DNA from: Arthrobacter dokdonellae
GTDB taxonomy: Bacteria > Actinomycetota > Actinomycetes > Actinomycetales > Micrococcaceae
Length of the DNA stretch: 64,000 nt
Assembly (NCBI RefSeq): GCF_003268655.1
Contig: NZ_CP029642.1
Coordinates: forward strand, 1,240,001 to 1,304,000
Direction: 5' to 3'
Position numbers and translations under genes: made by a program. Of the stretch, positions 40,455 through 45,512 are shown one piece after another; the first letter of the stretch is position 1; the number at the start of each line of letters is the position of its first letter. The notes under the pieces were generated by a model. That model saw nothing but the letters and a program-made list of their open reading frames with translations. It did not search any database and was not told the DNA's origin.

Positions 40455-41214
40455 CTACCGCCAAAAAGTACGACGGCGGGTGGCGGCGTAATAAATTACG
40501 TCACCACCCGCCCCACTTCCAACTCCCCACGCCCAGGCCAGACCGCCGATGATGGCCACGGGCAGCCCGCCCACCAGGATGTCGTAGGCGATGGTCAGCG
40601 CGAAGACCACGTCGCTGACCACGATGGAGATCAGCTGGCGGTGAACACGCGCTGCCAGATGTCCTGGCCGATCAGCAGGCCCAGGGTGTAGATGGCAAGG
40701 TAGGTGATGATGGTCTGCGGGCCGATCCCGTTCCATTGGAAGAAGCTGGCTCCACCCGGAACTGGATGCCGGACAGGCCGCCGACGGCCTTCCACGCGAA
40801 CGGGAGCATGAGCAGGAAGACGCCCACGGTCTTGATGACGAACTGCACCTGGTCGGCGAGCGTGATGGACCACATGCCGCCGATGGTTGAGTAGACCAGC
40901 ACGATGGCGCCGCCCACCGCAATGGCGAGCCACCGGTCCCAGCCGGACAGGACCACAAAAATTGTGGCATGGGCGCCCGAAGAGGTGGCCGAGATCAGGA
41001 CAGTCTAGGCCAGCATGACGATGCCGGACATCGTGGTGGTTTTCTGGCCGTACCGCAGGCTGAGCATCTGGGAAACGGTGTAGATCTTCAGGCGCAGGAT
41101 GGTGCCGGCGAAGAGGAGGCTCAGCAGCAGCATGCCTATGGCAACGTTAAAGGTCATGAAGGTGCTCCAGAGTGGCTGCGGATCCGCGAAATAAAATTGC
41201 CCAAGAGGCAACAT
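40455..41214 (-). pseudogene. Sodium:solute symporter (SSS family), decayed
   Basis: Pieces of one symporter are spread over frames on the minus strand. From 41214, ILRLKIYTVSQMLSLRYGQK leads to an in-frame TAG at 41005-41007. The same frame then resumes with GGAIVLVYSTIGGMWSITLA and DQVQFVIKTVGVFLLMLPFA. A frameshift near 40745 leads to FFQWNGIGPQTIITYLAIYT and IGQDIWQRVF, then another shift into a final helix ending at 40455. The N-terminal helices are absent. It is divergent from an intact XRE-cupin regulator, which was probably its control gene. Confidence 0.85.
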
Positions 41215-41319: not shown

Positions 41320-41904
41320 ATGAAGGCACTGCCCGTTGAACCCAGCTCTGCCCCGGTGGCCATCGGCTCACGGATCCGTGCCGCCCGTCAGTCACAGCGG
41401 CTCACGATTGAGCATGTGGCCGACGCGACCGGGCTGACCAAGGGGTTCCTGAGCCGCGTGGAGCGTGACCTCACCTCTCCCAGTGTCGCGTCCCTCGTGA
41501 CACTGTGCCAAGTCCTGTCCATTTCCATCGGCGAGCTTTTTGCCGCCCCCGAGACGCACCTGACGCGCCGCGGTGAGGGCCCGCGCATCTCGCTGGGGGG
41601 CGAGGGCATCGTGGAACGGCTGCTCACCGCCCGCTCGGAGCGCCGCCTGCAAATCCTTGGCACCACCATCGAACCGTTTGGCCGCGGCGAATCCGAGCTG
41701 TACGCCGTCGACTGTGACGTTGACGTGCTGCACATCGTCAGCGGCGAGCTGACGCTGATCATGACCCAGGAATCGTACGACCTGCAGGCCGGGGACACGC
41801 TCTCCTTCCCCGGCCGGGAGCCGCATTCCTGGGAGAACCGCTCCGCCGCCCCCGTGGAGGCCCTGTTCATCCTGGTCCCCGCCGCCTCCGGATCGGGCTA
41901 CTGA
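41320..41904 (+). CDS. XRE-family regulator with cupin domain
   Basis: A 194-residue protein with an N-terminal helix-turn-helix (residues about 15-70: IRAARQSQRLTIEHVADATG, FLSRVERDLTSPSVASL) and a C-terminal cupin (about 110-190: VDVLHIVSGELTL, GDTLSFPGREPHSWENRS). It is the PuuR-like architecture that senses small amines or related metabolites. ATG 41320 follows TAGGAGCACAC; the frame extends further upstream but that part is unlikely. Its divergent symporter is broken, yet a matching operator is present before the ureohydrolase gene at 48.4 kb, suggesting that operon is now its main target. Confidence 0.88.
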   Translation: MKALPVEPSSAPVAIGSRIRAARQSQRLTIEHVADATGLTKGFLSRVERDLTSPSVASLVTLCQVLSISIGELFAAPETHLTRRGEGPRISLGGEGIVERLLTARSERRLQILGTTIEPFGRGESELYAVDCDVDVLHIVSGELTLIMTQESYDLQAGDTLSFPGREPHSWENRSAAPVEALFILVPAASGSGY

Positions 41905-42032: not shown

Positions 42033-42320
42033 ATGGCACGAACAGCCGACGGCAGGAAAATCGCCCAGACGGTCACGTCCGTGGTGGCCATGGGCGCACT
42101 GGGGACGGCGGCACTGGGCAGCGTTGCATTGGATGGCACCATCAACGCCGCCAACGCAGCCAAGGCCGCAACGACCCAAAACAGCGGCACCACGACGCCG
42201 GACCCGTCCTCGGACTCAGGTTCCTCACCGGACTCCGGCTCACAGTCCGGCTCCTCCTCCGGCACCCAGCTGCTGCCCGGCAACGGAAGCGCCAGCCACT
42301 CCCGGTCGGCGGGATCCTGA
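42033..42320 (+). CDS. Small exported or membrane-anchored Ser/Gly/Thr-rich protein
   Basis: A 95-residue protein: a short basic start, one hydrophobic segment (about residues 10-34, TVTSVVAMGALGTAALGSVA) serving as signal or anchor, an Ala-rich stretch and a disordered tail dominated by Ser, Gly, Thr and Pro. The ATG follows GAGCGAGG. It opens the ApbE redox operon, with the next gene starting one base after its stop. In related operons an FMN-binding domain protein with a similar anchor and linker can occupy this place. Here no FMN-attachment motif (D-x-x-S/T-G-A-T) is seen, so it may be a shortened relative or an unrelated linker protein. Confidence 0.7.
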   Translation: MARTADGRKIAQTVTSVVAMGALGTAALGSVALDGTINAANAAKAATTQNSGTTTPDPSSDSGSSPDSGSQSGSSSGTQLLPGNGSASHSRSAGS

Positions 42321-42321
42321 C

Positions 42322-43383
42322 GTGGCGCCGGATGACGCCACGGCCCGCCGGTCCTGGCAGGTGTGGGGACTGTCCGCCTCGGTGGTGGTGACCGATCCCG
42401 GGCAGGCCGATGCCGCGGCCAGGCTGGCACAAGGGATGCTCGACGCCGTCGACCTCGCCTGCAGCCGCTTCCGCACGGACTCGGAACTGGCGGTGCGGCG
42501 CGGGGACCTGGTGCACGGCGCCACCGTGTCTCCGCTGCTGGCCACCCTGATGGAGTCAGCCTTGGCGGCGGCCCGGTGGACGGGCGGCGCCGTGGACCCC
42601 ACCCTGGGCGGGGACCTCATTTCCCTCGGCTACGACGCGGATTTTGCTTCCCTCCCCGGGCCCGGAAGGAACGACGGCGCCCGGTCGGCCGGCCGCTTGG
42701 CTGCCGGTCCGTCCTCCACAGGACTTTCGTCCGCCGGCAGGTCCCAGGCGCACGCGCCCCAGCCCAGTGCCCTCCTGCCCGGCGCGCCCCAGCCGCACGA
42801 GCCCCGCGCGCCCGGCTGGACTCGCATCGCCCTGGACAGCAGGTGCCTGACTGTTCCCGCGGACGTCACCGTGGATCTCGGCGCCACGGCCAAGGCGGTG
42901 GCGGCGGACATGGCGGCGGCGCGGATCGCCGTCGAACGTGGCTGCGGCGTGCTGGTGAACCTGGGCGGCGACATCGCCACCGCGGGCCCGGCCCCGGACG
43001 GGGCGGCCGGGCACTGGCAGGTCCTGGTCCAGGACACGCCCGGCGACCCCGCCCAGCAGGTGTCCCTGCCGGCGGGCCGCGCGCTGGCGACCTCCAGCAC
43101 GTCCAAGCGCCGCTGGCAGCAGGCCGGCGCGCTGCGCCACCACATCCTGGACCCGCGCTTCGGACTGCCGGCCGACGCCGTCTGGCGCAGTGCCAGCGTC
43201 GCCGCGCCCACCGCGCTGGAGGCCAATGCGTACAGCACCGCCGCCATCGTCAAGGGGCATGCGGCCGCCGCCTGGCTGCGGGATTCCTCCGTCAGCGCCC
43301 GTCTGGTGGACCAGGGCGGCCGCGTCCTGACGACGGCGGGCTGGCCCGCGCCCGAGCTGGCGGGAGCTGGTTTCCATGGATGA
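42322..43383 (+). CDS. apbE: FAD:protein FMN transferase (ApbE family)
   Basis: A protein of about 353 residues starting at GTG 42322. Family features are SRFRTDSELAVRRGD near the N-terminus, the WTGGAVDPTLGGDLISLGYD block, VTVDLGATAKAVAAD, VLVNLGGDIATAG, and the C-terminal ATSSTSKRRW with HHILDPRFGLPAD. ApbE attaches FMN covalently to Thr or Ser of exported redox proteins. No lipoprotein signal is visible at this start. A Pro/Ala/Ser-rich insertion (residues about 115-160) enlarges one loop. It overlaps the next gene by eight bases. Its FMN acceptor is not identified in the window. Confidence 0.88.
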   Translation: MAPDDATARRSWQVWGLSASVVVTDPGQADAAARLAQGMLDAVDLACSRFRTDSELAVRRGDLVHGATVSPLLATLMESALAAARWTGGAVDPTLGGDLISLGYDADFASLPGPGRNDGARSAGRLAAGPSSTGLSSAGRSQAHAPQPSALLPGAPQPHEPRAPGWTRIALDSRCLTVPADVTVDLGATAKAVAADMAAARIAVERGCGVLVNLGGDIATAGPAPDGAAGHWQVLVQDTPGDPAQQVSLPAGRALATSSTSKRRWQQAGALRHHILDPRFGLPADAVWRSASVAAPTALEANAYSTAAIVKGHAAAAWLRDSSVSARLVDQGGRVLTTAGWPAPELAGAGFHG

Positions 43384-43954
43384 CGCCATGTGGGCCTTTG
43401 CCCGGGTCAGCGGCCTGGTGTCCATGGTGCTCCTGACGGGTTCGGTGCTGTTGGGCATTCTGGCCAGGTCCGGGCGGCCGCTGCTGGTCATTCCGCGGTT
43501 TTCCGTTTCACTGCTGCACCGCAACATTTCGCTGCTGGCAGTGGTGTTCCTTGTTTTCCATGTGACGCCCCTGCTGCTCGATTCCTACGCGCGGGTCAAC
43601 CTGGTGGACGTGGTGGTCCCCTTCCTGGGCAGCTACAGGGGGTTTTGGCAGGGCCTGGGCACGGTGGCCCTGGACCTGATGGCCGCCGTGGTGGTCACCA
43701 GCGCCCTCCGGCACCGGCTGGGACAGCGGACATTCCGTGTGGTGCACTGGGCCAGCTATGTCATGTGGCCGCTGGCGCTGGCGCACTCCGTGGGGAACGG
43801 AACGGACGGGACGAGCGCGCCGGTGGTGGCCGCCGCCGTCGTACTCACCGTGGCTGTGCTGGCCGCGGCGGCGTGGAGGGTGTCGGCCGGCTTCCTGGAG
43901 ACGGCGTCGCTGCGGGGCAGTGGTGGAACCGCCCGGAACGGGTGGCGGCCATGA
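43376..43954 (+). CDS. Ferric-reductase-like transmembrane heme b protein
   Basis: A 192-residue integral membrane protein with five to six hydrophobic helices. His48 and His62 in one helix (LLHRNISLLAVVFLVFHV) and His124 and His137 in another (FRVVHWASYVMWPLALAHSV) have the 13-14 residue spacing that places two stacked b hemes across the membrane in ferric reductases and NADPH oxidases. The cytoplasmic FAD/NADPH domain of those enzymes is missing; the next two genes could supply electrons instead. It overlaps apbE upstream and the NuoF-like gene downstream (ATGA). Confidence 0.88.
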   Translation: MDDAMWAFARVSGLVSMVLLTGSVLLGILARSGRPLLVIPRFSVSLLHRNISLLAVVFLVFHVTPLLLDSYARVNLVDVVVPFLGSYRGFWQGLGTVALDLMAAVVVTSALRHRLGQRTFRVVHWASYVMWPLALAHSVGNGTDGTSAPVVAAAVVLTVAVLAAAAWRVSAGFLETASLRGSGGTARNGWRP

Positions 43955-45267
43955 GCGCGGACACGGCGGTGGAGCCGGTGGAAAGGGGCGCTGCCGGGCA
44001 GTCCGCCGCTTCCCGGCTGTTCGCTGGCGGCGCCAACGCCGGGCATGCTGCGCACCTCGCGGCCTACGGCACGATGCCGCGACGCGCGCCGGGAGGATCG
44101 CTGGCGCAGGAGCTGGAGGCCTCCGGGCTGACCGGCCGCGGCGGCGCGGGGTTCTCCGCGTGGCGGAAGTTTGCCGCCGTCGACCTCTCCCGCAGGCCCA
44201 ACAGGTATGCGCGGCGGACGGGCGCGCCGGTGCTCATCGCGAACGGCGCGGAAGGCGAGCCGCTCAGCTTCAAGGACGCCACGCTGCTGCACAACGCCCC
44301 GCATCTGGTCATCGACGGGCTGCTCGCGGCGGCGGAGGCACTCGGCGCGGGCAGCATGTTCATCTATGCCGGCGCGGCACGGCTGGAACCTGTGGCCGCG
44401 GCGCTCGCCGAACGGGCGGATGCCCGGAGCATTGCGCTGCTCGAGGCACCGGACACCTTTGTGGCCGGCCAGGCCAGCGCCGTGGTCAATTTCCTGGAGA
44501 CCGGCAGGGCGCTGCCCCGCGACCTTGCAGGACGGCTGGCCGAAAGTGGCTTCAAGGGCCGCCCCACACTGGTCCACAACGTTGAAACGTGGGCCCACGT
44601 CGCCCTCGTGGCCCGCTACGGGGCCGACTGGTTCCGCGCCGAGGGCACTGCGGAGGACCCGGGCACGCGGCTGGTGTCGGTGACCGGCAACGTCCCGTCG
44701 GAGGTGGTGCTCGAGGTGCCCGGCGGTGCCGGCCTGGGCGACGTGCTCGCGTCGGCGGGGGTGGGGCTCGACGCCGTTTCCGCCGTCCTGGTGGGCGGGT
44801 ACCACGGGTGCTGGGTCCGGCCTTCGGGAATGGTGCTTTCGACGGGGGCGCCGTCCGGTGGCGCGCCGTCTGGGCCGCCGTCCCCCGGGGCGCCGTCCGC
44901 GGGCTGGGTCCGGCCGGGCGCCGGAGTGTTGCACGTGCTGGGTGTGGGCCGGTGCGGCCTCGAGGCCACGGCACGGATGGTGGATTATTTGGCGGGGGAG
45001 TCGGCACGCCAATGCGGCCCATGCATGTTCGGGCTGCCGGCGCTCGCGGACGTCATGAAGCGTCTCGCTGCCGGCTCGGGCGCGCCGGACCTGGTGCGCG
45101 AGGTGGAGCGGCTGTCGGCCCTGGTGTCCGGCCGCGGCGCCTGCCACCACCCGGACGGCACGGTGCAGCTCATCCACAGCGCACTGGAGACATTTGCCGA
45201 CGACGTCCGGTGGCACCTGGCGGGACAGTGCCTTGCGGCAGCCCGGGCAGACGGAGCGGCGCAATGA
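43951..45267 (+). CDS. NuoF-like NADH:acceptor flavo-iron-sulfur protein
   Basis: A 438-residue relative of the 51-kDa subunit of complex I. FMN/NADH-site elements are LTGRGGAGFSAWRKF (about 47-61) and LIANGAEGEPLSFKD. An SLBB-type region follows (EVPGGAGLGDVLASAGV). The C-terminal 4Fe-4S domain has SARQCGPCMFGLPAL and a distal Cys in GRGACHHPDGT. A Gly/Pro/Ser-rich insertion (about residues 294-318) is unusual. No NuoE or NuoG partner is present, so this is not a respiratory complex I gene. Translational coupling on both sides ties it to the membrane heme protein and ferredoxin. Confidence 0.87.
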   Translation: MSADTAVEPVERGAAGQSAASRLFAGGANAGHAAHLAAYGTMPRRAPGGSLAQELEASGLTGRGGAGFSAWRKFAAVDLSRRPNRYARRTGAPVLIANGAEGEPLSFKDATLLHNAPHLVIDGLLAAAEALGAGSMFIYAGAARLEPVAAALAERADARSIALLEAPDTFVAGQASAVVNFLETGRALPRDLAGRLAESGFKGRPTLVHNVETWAHVALVARYGADWFRAEGTAEDPGTRLVSVTGNVPSEVVLEVPGGAGLGDVLASAGVGLDAVSAVLVGGYHGCWVRPSGMVLSTGAPSGGAPSGPPSPGAPSAGWVRPGAGVLHVLGVGRCGLEATARMVDYLAGESARQCGPCMFGLPALADVMKRLAAGSGAPDLVREVERLSALVSGRGACHHPDGTVQLIHSALETFADDVRWHLAGQCLAAARADGAAQ

Positions 45268-45512
45268 ACGCCGGCGGGCCGGCGGCGCGGCTGCACATCG
45301 ACTGGACCGTGTGCGACGGACGTGGACTCTGTGCCGAACTGCTTCCGGAAGCGCTCACGCGCGACGACTGGGGCTACCCGCTCGCCGCGCCCGGCCGGAT
45401 CCGCGGCAGCGGCGACGCGACGAACGTGCCCCTGACCGGCGCAGAACTCGTCCCGGCCATGGACGCCGTGAAGCTCTGCCCGCTTCTGGCCCTGCGCATC
45501 ACCCGCCCCTGA
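45264..45512 (+). CDS. Mini-ferredoxin
   Basis: An 82-residue protein with Cys17, Cys23 and Cys72 (VCDGRGLCAELLPEAL and VKLCPLLAL), a three-cysteine arrangement typical of actinobacterial 3Fe-4S ferredoxins. The position between the first and second ligands seems to lack a fourth cysteine. ATG 45264 overlaps the stop of the NuoF-like gene by four bases. It probably relays electrons between that flavoprotein and the membrane heme protein. It is the last gene of the operon. Confidence 0.85.
   Translation: MNAGGPAARLHIDWTVCDGRGLCAELLPEALTRDDWGYPLAAPGRIRGSGDATNVPLTGAELVPAMDAVKLCPLLALRITRP

Follow-up and report, generated by a model that had tools for sequence, protein, structure and literature searches.

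A short membrane-anchored tail protein is the probable flavin acceptor of an actinobacterial ApbE operon

ApbE attaches flavin mononucleotide (FMN) to a serine or threonine of acceptor proteins. A stretch of 64,000 nucleotides from Arthrobacter dokdonellae (contig NZ_CP029642.1, positions 1,240,001 to 1,304,000; the window) carries apbE as the second gene of a five-gene operon, between a gene for a small exported protein and genes for a heme membrane protein, a NuoF-like protein and a ferredoxin, and the locus raises the question of which protein this ApbE modifies. An earlier note, made from the sequence, had described the operon as a two-heme path across the membrane served by the NuoF-like protein, the ferredoxin and ApbE, and had concluded that the window lacks the FMN acceptor. 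The description stands: all five open reading frames (ORFs) lie at 42033-45512 on the forward strand where the note had placed them, their junctions are one base or overlapping, and Pfam searches agreed with the four gene identities. The missing acceptor does not stand. The C-terminus of the small protein, here called the tail protein, is the conserved end of a family, and in Streptomyces-type loci this end is the textbook ApbE motif, so the operon's own small protein is the likely acceptor. The probable role of the operon is to carry electrons from the cell interior to a flavin at the extreme end of a membrane-anchored tail, a type of carrier that recurs across actinobacteria.

Known acceptors were sought by profile search in the whole genome (4.53 Mb, two contigs). 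FMN_bind, DUF2271, DUF3570 and Flavodoxin_4 each gave no match (FMN_red extensions were not searched for), which rules out an acceptor elsewhere in the genome that carries one of these four domains. The operon's apbE proved to be the only ApbE gene in the genome. As the sole ApbE of a genome with none of the four known acceptor domains, it fits what Meheust et al. 2021 (PMC8238504) call an orphan apbE. A genome-wide search for proteins with the ApbE motif, proposed in the earlier note, produced no candidate: a degenerate-codon scan for D-x-x-[ST]-G-A-[ST] gave 80 DNA sites against 85 in a reversed control, which is chance level. We examined 40 of the 80, picked by codons able to read Ser or Thr at both places; 39 were in frame, many in spurious frames, and one lay in an apparent exported subtilisin-like protease (names read by eye). 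Since none of these 40 looked by eye like a plausible flavin carrier, an acceptor with a canonical DxxSGAT/S motif elsewhere in the genome was rejected. Within the window, the canonical motif had no DNA site, compared to 1.1 expected.

A small gene stands directly before apbE in all 17 readable relatives that have the operon (L032-L049 minus the masked L036). Its products share one build, with a single N-terminal helix, a linker that varies in length and sequence, and a constant end, which is S-x-G-S in 16 and RASG in one. The earlier note had proposed a survey of gene order in the Micrococcaceae; the order small gene, apbE, membrane gene, nuoF, ferredoxin gene is kept far outside the genus, with exceptions, and the operon is therefore not a chance assembly. 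For a class-wide view (set 1), an alignment of NuoF-like proteins was run against 394 genomes, 361 of which matched at E 1e-35, ordinary NuoF included. We took 70 stretches for family spread and dropped L092, where the upstream ORF is a histidine kinase. The resulting 54 tails, which include those of the window and its relatives, come from 23 families and 35 genera. By automatic count, window included, 45 of the 54 end in [ST]xG[ST], whereas random draws of four residues from the last 40 of each protein gave a mean of 1.5 matches and a maximum of 8 in 20,000 trials. When one tail per genus was counted, 28 of 35 matched. Column information in these tails reached 3.5-3.6 bits at the last two positions and 2.8 at the fourth-last, with at most 2.1 in the rest of the last 16.

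A second set was taken from named loci (the best 80 of at least 504 confirmed), including Nocardia, Mycolicibacterium, Rhodococcus, Gordonia, Williamsia, Leifsonia, Cryobacterium, Sinomonas, Curtobacterium, Frankia, Paractinoplanes, Streptomyces and records titled Acidimicrobiia and Solirubrobacterales, among others. Automatic counts here gave 42 of 63 for [ST]xG[ST] and 57 of 63 for [ST]x[GA][ST]. In 11 loci (L195, L198, L199, L203, L205, L213, L214, L217, L219, L224 and L238; ten titled Streptomyces and L219 titled Actinobacteria bacterium), with 8 distinct but closely related ends, the tail finishes with DSTSGAS directly before the stop codon. This is a complete D-x-x-[ST]-G-A-[ST] ApbE motif, as that motif is given in PMC12052999. 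Further ends in this set are HATSGAS, NSGAS, TTGAS and VSGAS. With both sets merged, 102 of 118 distinct ends are [ST]xG[ST] or [ST]GA[ST], comprising 13 [ST]GA[ST], 24 [ST]GG[ST], 40 [ST]SG[ST], 8 [ST]AG[ST] and 17 other [ST]xG[ST], and four of the remaining ends have [ST]G[AGS][ST] somewhere among their last ten residues. The FMN_bind proteins of the same genus carry either SGAT or SGGT, and a GG form is thus nothing unusual for ApbE.

Some rows were curated before counting. Seven automatic picks of set 2 were removed by hand (L170, L194, L215, L221, L223, L226 and L227); ten tails were added by eye (L095, L163, L164, L166, L168, L169, L171, L187, L194 and L204), six matching the pattern and four not; and the non-matching ends of L104, L215, L221 and L226 were put in. 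Without the hand-added rows, 97 of 105 distinct ends match. Ends that agree in all of their last 14 residues were counted once, which reduced 124 to 118, and the two sets share two ends (L044/L188 and L091/L177). Not countable were L036 (masked), L100, L147, L212 and L225 (contig end). As controls we used ORFs from the same loci, selected mechanically on both strands for a membrane helix, a similarly composed C-terminus and a third-position GC above 0.8, so that some are not genes. Only 3 of 423 controls end in [ST]xG[ST] and none in [ST]GA[ST]; two of the three read as further tails, one after the ferredoxin gene in L102 and one a tandem second tail in L183. Elsewhere in the operon, [ST]x[GA][ST] ends were found in 0 of 156 membrane proteins, 0 of 142 ApbEs, 1 of 168 NuoF-like proteins and 0 of 159 ferredoxins. 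A tail fused to one of these four proteins was also sought, and none was convincing.

For each of the 109 tails picked automatically (with a few genomes represented twice), the N-side flank of the helix is the more positive, with a mean of +3.2 versus -0.7 on the other side, and by the positive-inside rule the C-terminus would therefore lie outside. The chain after the helix measures 43-160 residues (median 71) and, judged by its composition, is predicted to be disordered. The window's tail matched no Pfam or NCBIfam family at E 0.1; a protein-database search with it returned two close relatives and nothing else, and one with a Streptomyces tail returned two matches that look like deleted or chimeric genes. 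Several loci vary the arrangement. The tail gene of L102 stands at the operon end and not before apbE. Two tail-like small proteins per locus occur in L183, L135, L142, L146 and L159, and in L135, L142, L146 and L159 the upstream one has TGAS followed by an acidic extension of 13-18 residues. In L104, L226 and L221 a TSGGS-like (TSGGS in L104 and L226) or TSGS-like motif precedes an extension of 4 to about 40 residues, so that the site would be internal.

The enzyme encoded next to the tail has the features of the ApbE family. The window's ApbE matched PF02424 with 141.7 bits against a cut-off of 25.6, and its HHILDP region aligned to the solved ApbE 1vrm and others. Of the tail-type ApbEs, 121 of 124 show the loose catalytic pattern H-x-[IL]-[DN]-P, as do 10 of the 11 canonical, FMN_bind-paired ones. 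In the tree, the 11 canonical enzymes cluster together (support 0.999), and the 124 tail-type ones fall outside this cluster. By a hydrophobicity test that took the start codon nearest the profile match, no signal peptide was present in any of the 135 ApbEs, the canonical ones and the window's included. A survey that requires ApbE or FMN_bind to have a signal peptide would miss tail-type clusters.

We then compared the occurrence of ApbE, FMN_bind and tails across genomes, all of them chosen by their NuoF-like gene or by kinship and not at random. Among 38 relatives, ApbE is present in 22 and FMN_bind in 10 (11 genes), and all 11 FMN_bind genes adjoin an ApbE of their own. Nineteen of the 38 have the operon: 12 lack FMN_bind and have the operon's ApbE as their single one, and 7 have a separate FMN_bind/ApbE pair besides. 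In 50 further genomes picked for their NuoF-like gene (47 of the 80 named loci plus three G genomes; L194 left out), FMN_bind was found in 29 and not in 21. These 21 genomes (rows read by eye) have one ApbE gene in 17 cases, two in three and none in G431, a small metagenome-assembled genome. The tail is present in 16 of the 17 genomes with a single ApbE and no FMN_bind. Four Mycobacterium-type genomes (G040, G427, G428 and G432) have no apbE in the operon or in the stretch around it, that of G040 lying 1.5 Mb off; in each of the four the genome has a single ApbE and no FMN_bind, and the tail stands directly before the membrane gene. Ten named loci have the membrane gene and lack apbE in the stretch (L163, L164, L166, L168, L169, L171, L187, L200, L228 and L232); in seven of them the tail likewise precedes the membrane gene. 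FMN_bind near the operon was not found in L090-L159 and, among the 80 named loci, occurred only in L189 and L207, both of which have tails too. L207 was considered as a natural swap of the tail for FMN_bind, wrongly, as its tail sits just before the membrane protein. A distant membrane gene-nuoF version without apbE (15 loci: L120, L123-L127, L129-L132, L134, L138, L139, L141 and L144) showed no tail. In four of these (L123, L124, L129 and L144) the NuoF-like and ferredoxin matches fall in one ORF.

The earlier note had assigned His48/His62 and His124/His137 of the membrane protein to two b hemes and had named their loss in homologs as evidence against its interpretation. These histidines are kept in 72, 72, 71 and 72, respectively, of 72 aligned sequences (the window and those 71 of the 80 named loci in which the gene is single, intact and of fitting length). 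The protein also lacks a cytoplasmic flavin adenine dinucleotide (FAD) domain, as the note had stated: its only match above cut-off is PF01794, and no FAD/NAD domain is fused to it as in NOX and ferric reductases. An AlphaFold model (mean predicted local distance difference test, pLDDT, 89) has five long helices, with two histidines in each of two of them. Foldseek placed NOX and STEAP structures on top, with probability 1.00 for the first four and template-modelling (TM) scores by query of 0.49-0.62, at weak E-values (best 0.047). On the cytoplasmic side, Cys335, Cys355, Cys358 and Cys398 of the NuoF-like protein are invariant in all 8 aligned sequences, and a 12-sequence alignment has four invariant cysteines too. 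The features of the locus are listed in Table 1.

Table 1. Operon genes, candidate attachment site and adjoining regulator (window positions; aa, amino acids)
Feature	Position	Strand	Description
Tail protein (small exported)	42033..42320	+	95 aa; one base before apbE; N-terminal membrane helix (best segment residues 14-32), Ser/Gly/Thr/Pro-rich tether, end HSRSAGS; candidate FMN acceptor
HSRSAGS codons, last seven residues	42297..42317	+	Candidate FMN attachment site, C-terminal Ser95; basis: C-terminal conservation and DSTSGAS at the equivalent place in Streptomyces-type loci
apbE, FAD:protein FMN transferase	42322..43383	+	GTG start, 353 aa; Pfam ApbE PF02424, E 4.2e-41
Membrane protein, MsrQ-like/ferric-reductase-like, two predicted b hemes	43376..43954	+	192 aa, overlap 8 with apbE; Ferric_reduct PF01794, E 3.2e-9
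NuoF-like flavo-iron-sulfur protein, presumed NADH entry	43951..45267	+	438 aa, overlap 4; Complex1_51K PF01512, E 1.1e-25; NADH_4Fe-4S PF10589, E 2.7e-17
Ferredoxin, three Cys (read from sequence), presumed link from NuoF-like protein to heme	45264..45512	+	82 aa, overlap 4; Fer4_15 PF13459, E 4.9e-8
HTH-cupin (helix-turn-helix; PuuR-like) regulator	41320..41904	+	Adjoins operon, here and in the four closest relatives L032-L035, where it is 93-95% identical

The HTH-cupin regulator is a possible regulator of the operon. A sensor-kinase-like gene lies upstream of the operon in L036, L037, L047-L049, L091 and L092, in the place that this regulator holds in the window strain. At 40455-41214 of the reverse strand, short overlapping frames resemble a frameshifted sodium/solute symporter when read by eye.

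It could be argued that the operon's ApbE modifies another, unlinked protein and that the tail is an accessory whose conserved end docks on ApbE or on the membrane protein. We infer the flavinylation of the tail, which leaves room for such a protein, and so do the motif sites in the genome, nearly all of those examined being in frame and one belonging to the protease, as well as G433, which has an ApbE and neither FMN_bind nor a recognised tail. However, the sites occur at chance level and none of those examined resembles a flavin carrier; Streptomyces-type tails end in the full ApbE motif; and the tail keeps its place beside the membrane protein in genomes whose apbE lies apart from the operon. 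We therefore consider an unlinked acceptor unlikely. A conserved C-terminal SxGS might also be kept for a reason other than flavin: the residues might carry a different modification or act as a signal for a protease or for export, or the overlapping start of apbE might fix the nucleotides there. Indeed, the terminal Ser codon is TCN in 91 of 98 and TCA-TGA can overlap an ATG. Yet five Ser codons and all four Gly codons are used, and the end is kept in L048, L090, L117 and L119, where the ApbE profile match starts more than 100 bases downstream, and in tails that stand before the membrane gene, so that DNA context does not explain it. That the end alternates with textbook [ST]GA[ST] and is almost never shared by the other four operon proteins also speaks against a non-flavin role, which we regard as quite unlikely.

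A further explanation would be that the small gene is the remnant of a decayed FMN_bind gene that has lost its domain, in a system that is dying in this strain; the FMN_bind proteins of relatives do have an N-terminal helix and a low-complexity linker as well. Decay is disfavoured, and very improbable in our estimate, given that 54 domain-less tails from 35 genera and 23 families have the same architecture, that FMN_bind is absent near the operon in L090-L159 and accompanies a tail in the two named loci where it occurs, and that the canonical ApbEs form a separate group.

Several observations weigh against the tail as the general acceptor. The window's own end, HSRSAGS, is off consensus and differs from D-x-x-[ST]-G-A-[ST] at three positions (H for D, and A-G for G-A). 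Twelve of the 118 distinct ends lack both the terminal motif and any [ST]G[AGS][ST] in the last ten residues, four of these still ending in GS, and the Fisher test of tail against control counts, at 1.6e-88, ignores relatedness. G433, the genome of locus L170, must have some other acceptor, since it has a single ApbE but lacks FMN_bind and shows no recognised tail near the operon, and G425, G434 and G459 have two ApbEs without FMN_bind. No tail was seen in L200, L228 and L232, which have the membrane gene and no apbE in the stretch, or beside apbE in L092/L170, L112, L113, L223, L227, L231 and L236. An ApbE without a signal peptide must act ahead of export, as is probably the case, or the topology is unusual, and the canonical pairs are alike in this. 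NADH (reduced nicotinamide adenine dinucleotide) as the donor and the ferredoxin step are suggested by family membership. In the K. pneumoniae system, according to PMC12052999, a Gly-to-Ala change in the motif leaves ~50% flavinylation and ApbE prefers Thr over Ser; in favour of the tail, the same text reports that changing the motif Asp to Ala hardly affects modification, that seven residues are enough for ApbE and that tags work best at a protein terminus.

Altogether, we consider it likely that the operon encodes an electron relay across the membrane, in which the carrier on the outer side is FMN, attached covalently by ApbE to the C-terminal Ser of a short, disordered, membrane-anchored tail without a domain. 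Electrons would pass from NADH to the NuoF-like FMN/Fe-S protein, on to the ferredoxin, and from there through the inner to the outer heme of the MsrQ-like protein. The outer heme would reduce the FMN on the tail's last residue, which would hand the electrons to an acceptor outside the membrane, and the tether could let the flavin swing in the manner of a lipoyl arm. Iron reduction or a quinone is a possible terminal step.

That homologous operons might already be known, a point raised in the earlier note, is true of the core and, as far as we found, not of the tail. The combination of ApbE, a two-heme MsrQ-like membrane protein and a NuoF-like protein is a published cluster type: PMC8238504 describes MsrQ-like clusters with apbE, a NuoF-like protein in 31 of the clusters, and broad conservation in Actinobacteria. 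The window shares with these systems a PF01794 membrane protein with two heme-binding His pairs, apbE and an NAD-binding partner (here NuoF-like with PF10589; the alternative there is PF00175). In contrast to them, its genome has a domain-less tail in place of the FMN-binding-domain gene typical there. MsrQ-like proteins are described with six transmembrane helices; the model of the window's protein shows five long ones. The pipeline of that study retained a cluster only if ApbE, FMN-bind, DUF2271 or DUF3570 had a signal peptide or lipidation site, a filter that tail-type clusters would fail. In open-access PubMed Central text we found no account of C-terminal tail acceptors; the tables of PMC8238504 may nevertheless list the tail proteins without comment. 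The membrane and cytoplasmic parts are thus known in kind, and the tail acceptor is the new part.

PplA, FmnB and Ndh2 are the component names of Gram-positive flavin-based extracellular electron transfer. As outlined in PMC8238504, that system has a membrane relay to an extracytoplasmic covalent flavin, as proposed here; unlike it, the window's genome has no FMN_bind and has a heme cytochrome and a NuoF-like donor (Ndh2 was not searched for). As described in PMC11334425, FMN_red proteins that are extended at the C-terminus have their flavinylation motif in this unstructured extension, as proposed for the tails. There, however, the motif lies beside a folded flavin-binding domain, whereas no domain is recognised in the tails and the candidate acceptor Ser is the last residue. 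The artificial Flavin-tag, an ApbE tag of seven residues (Tong et al. 2021, as described in PMC12052999), shows that a short terminal peptide suffices for ApbE; it is man-made, and the tails would be its natural counterpart.

Collectively, these results make it reasonably likely that a natural class of domain-less covalent flavoproteins spans the actinobacteria, that the ApbE rule extends from [ST]GA[ST] to [ST]xGS-COOH, with FMN carried by the final residue of a disordered peptide that is tethered to the membrane and acts as a swinging redox arm, and that this class explains part of the orphan-apbE genomes. PMC8238504 counts 670 genomes (4%) in which an ApbE has no known substrate; if our reading is true, the tail class would offer an answer for an actinobacterial part of these genomes, and the tail would be a redox carrier without a fold, the natural version of an engineered flavin tag.

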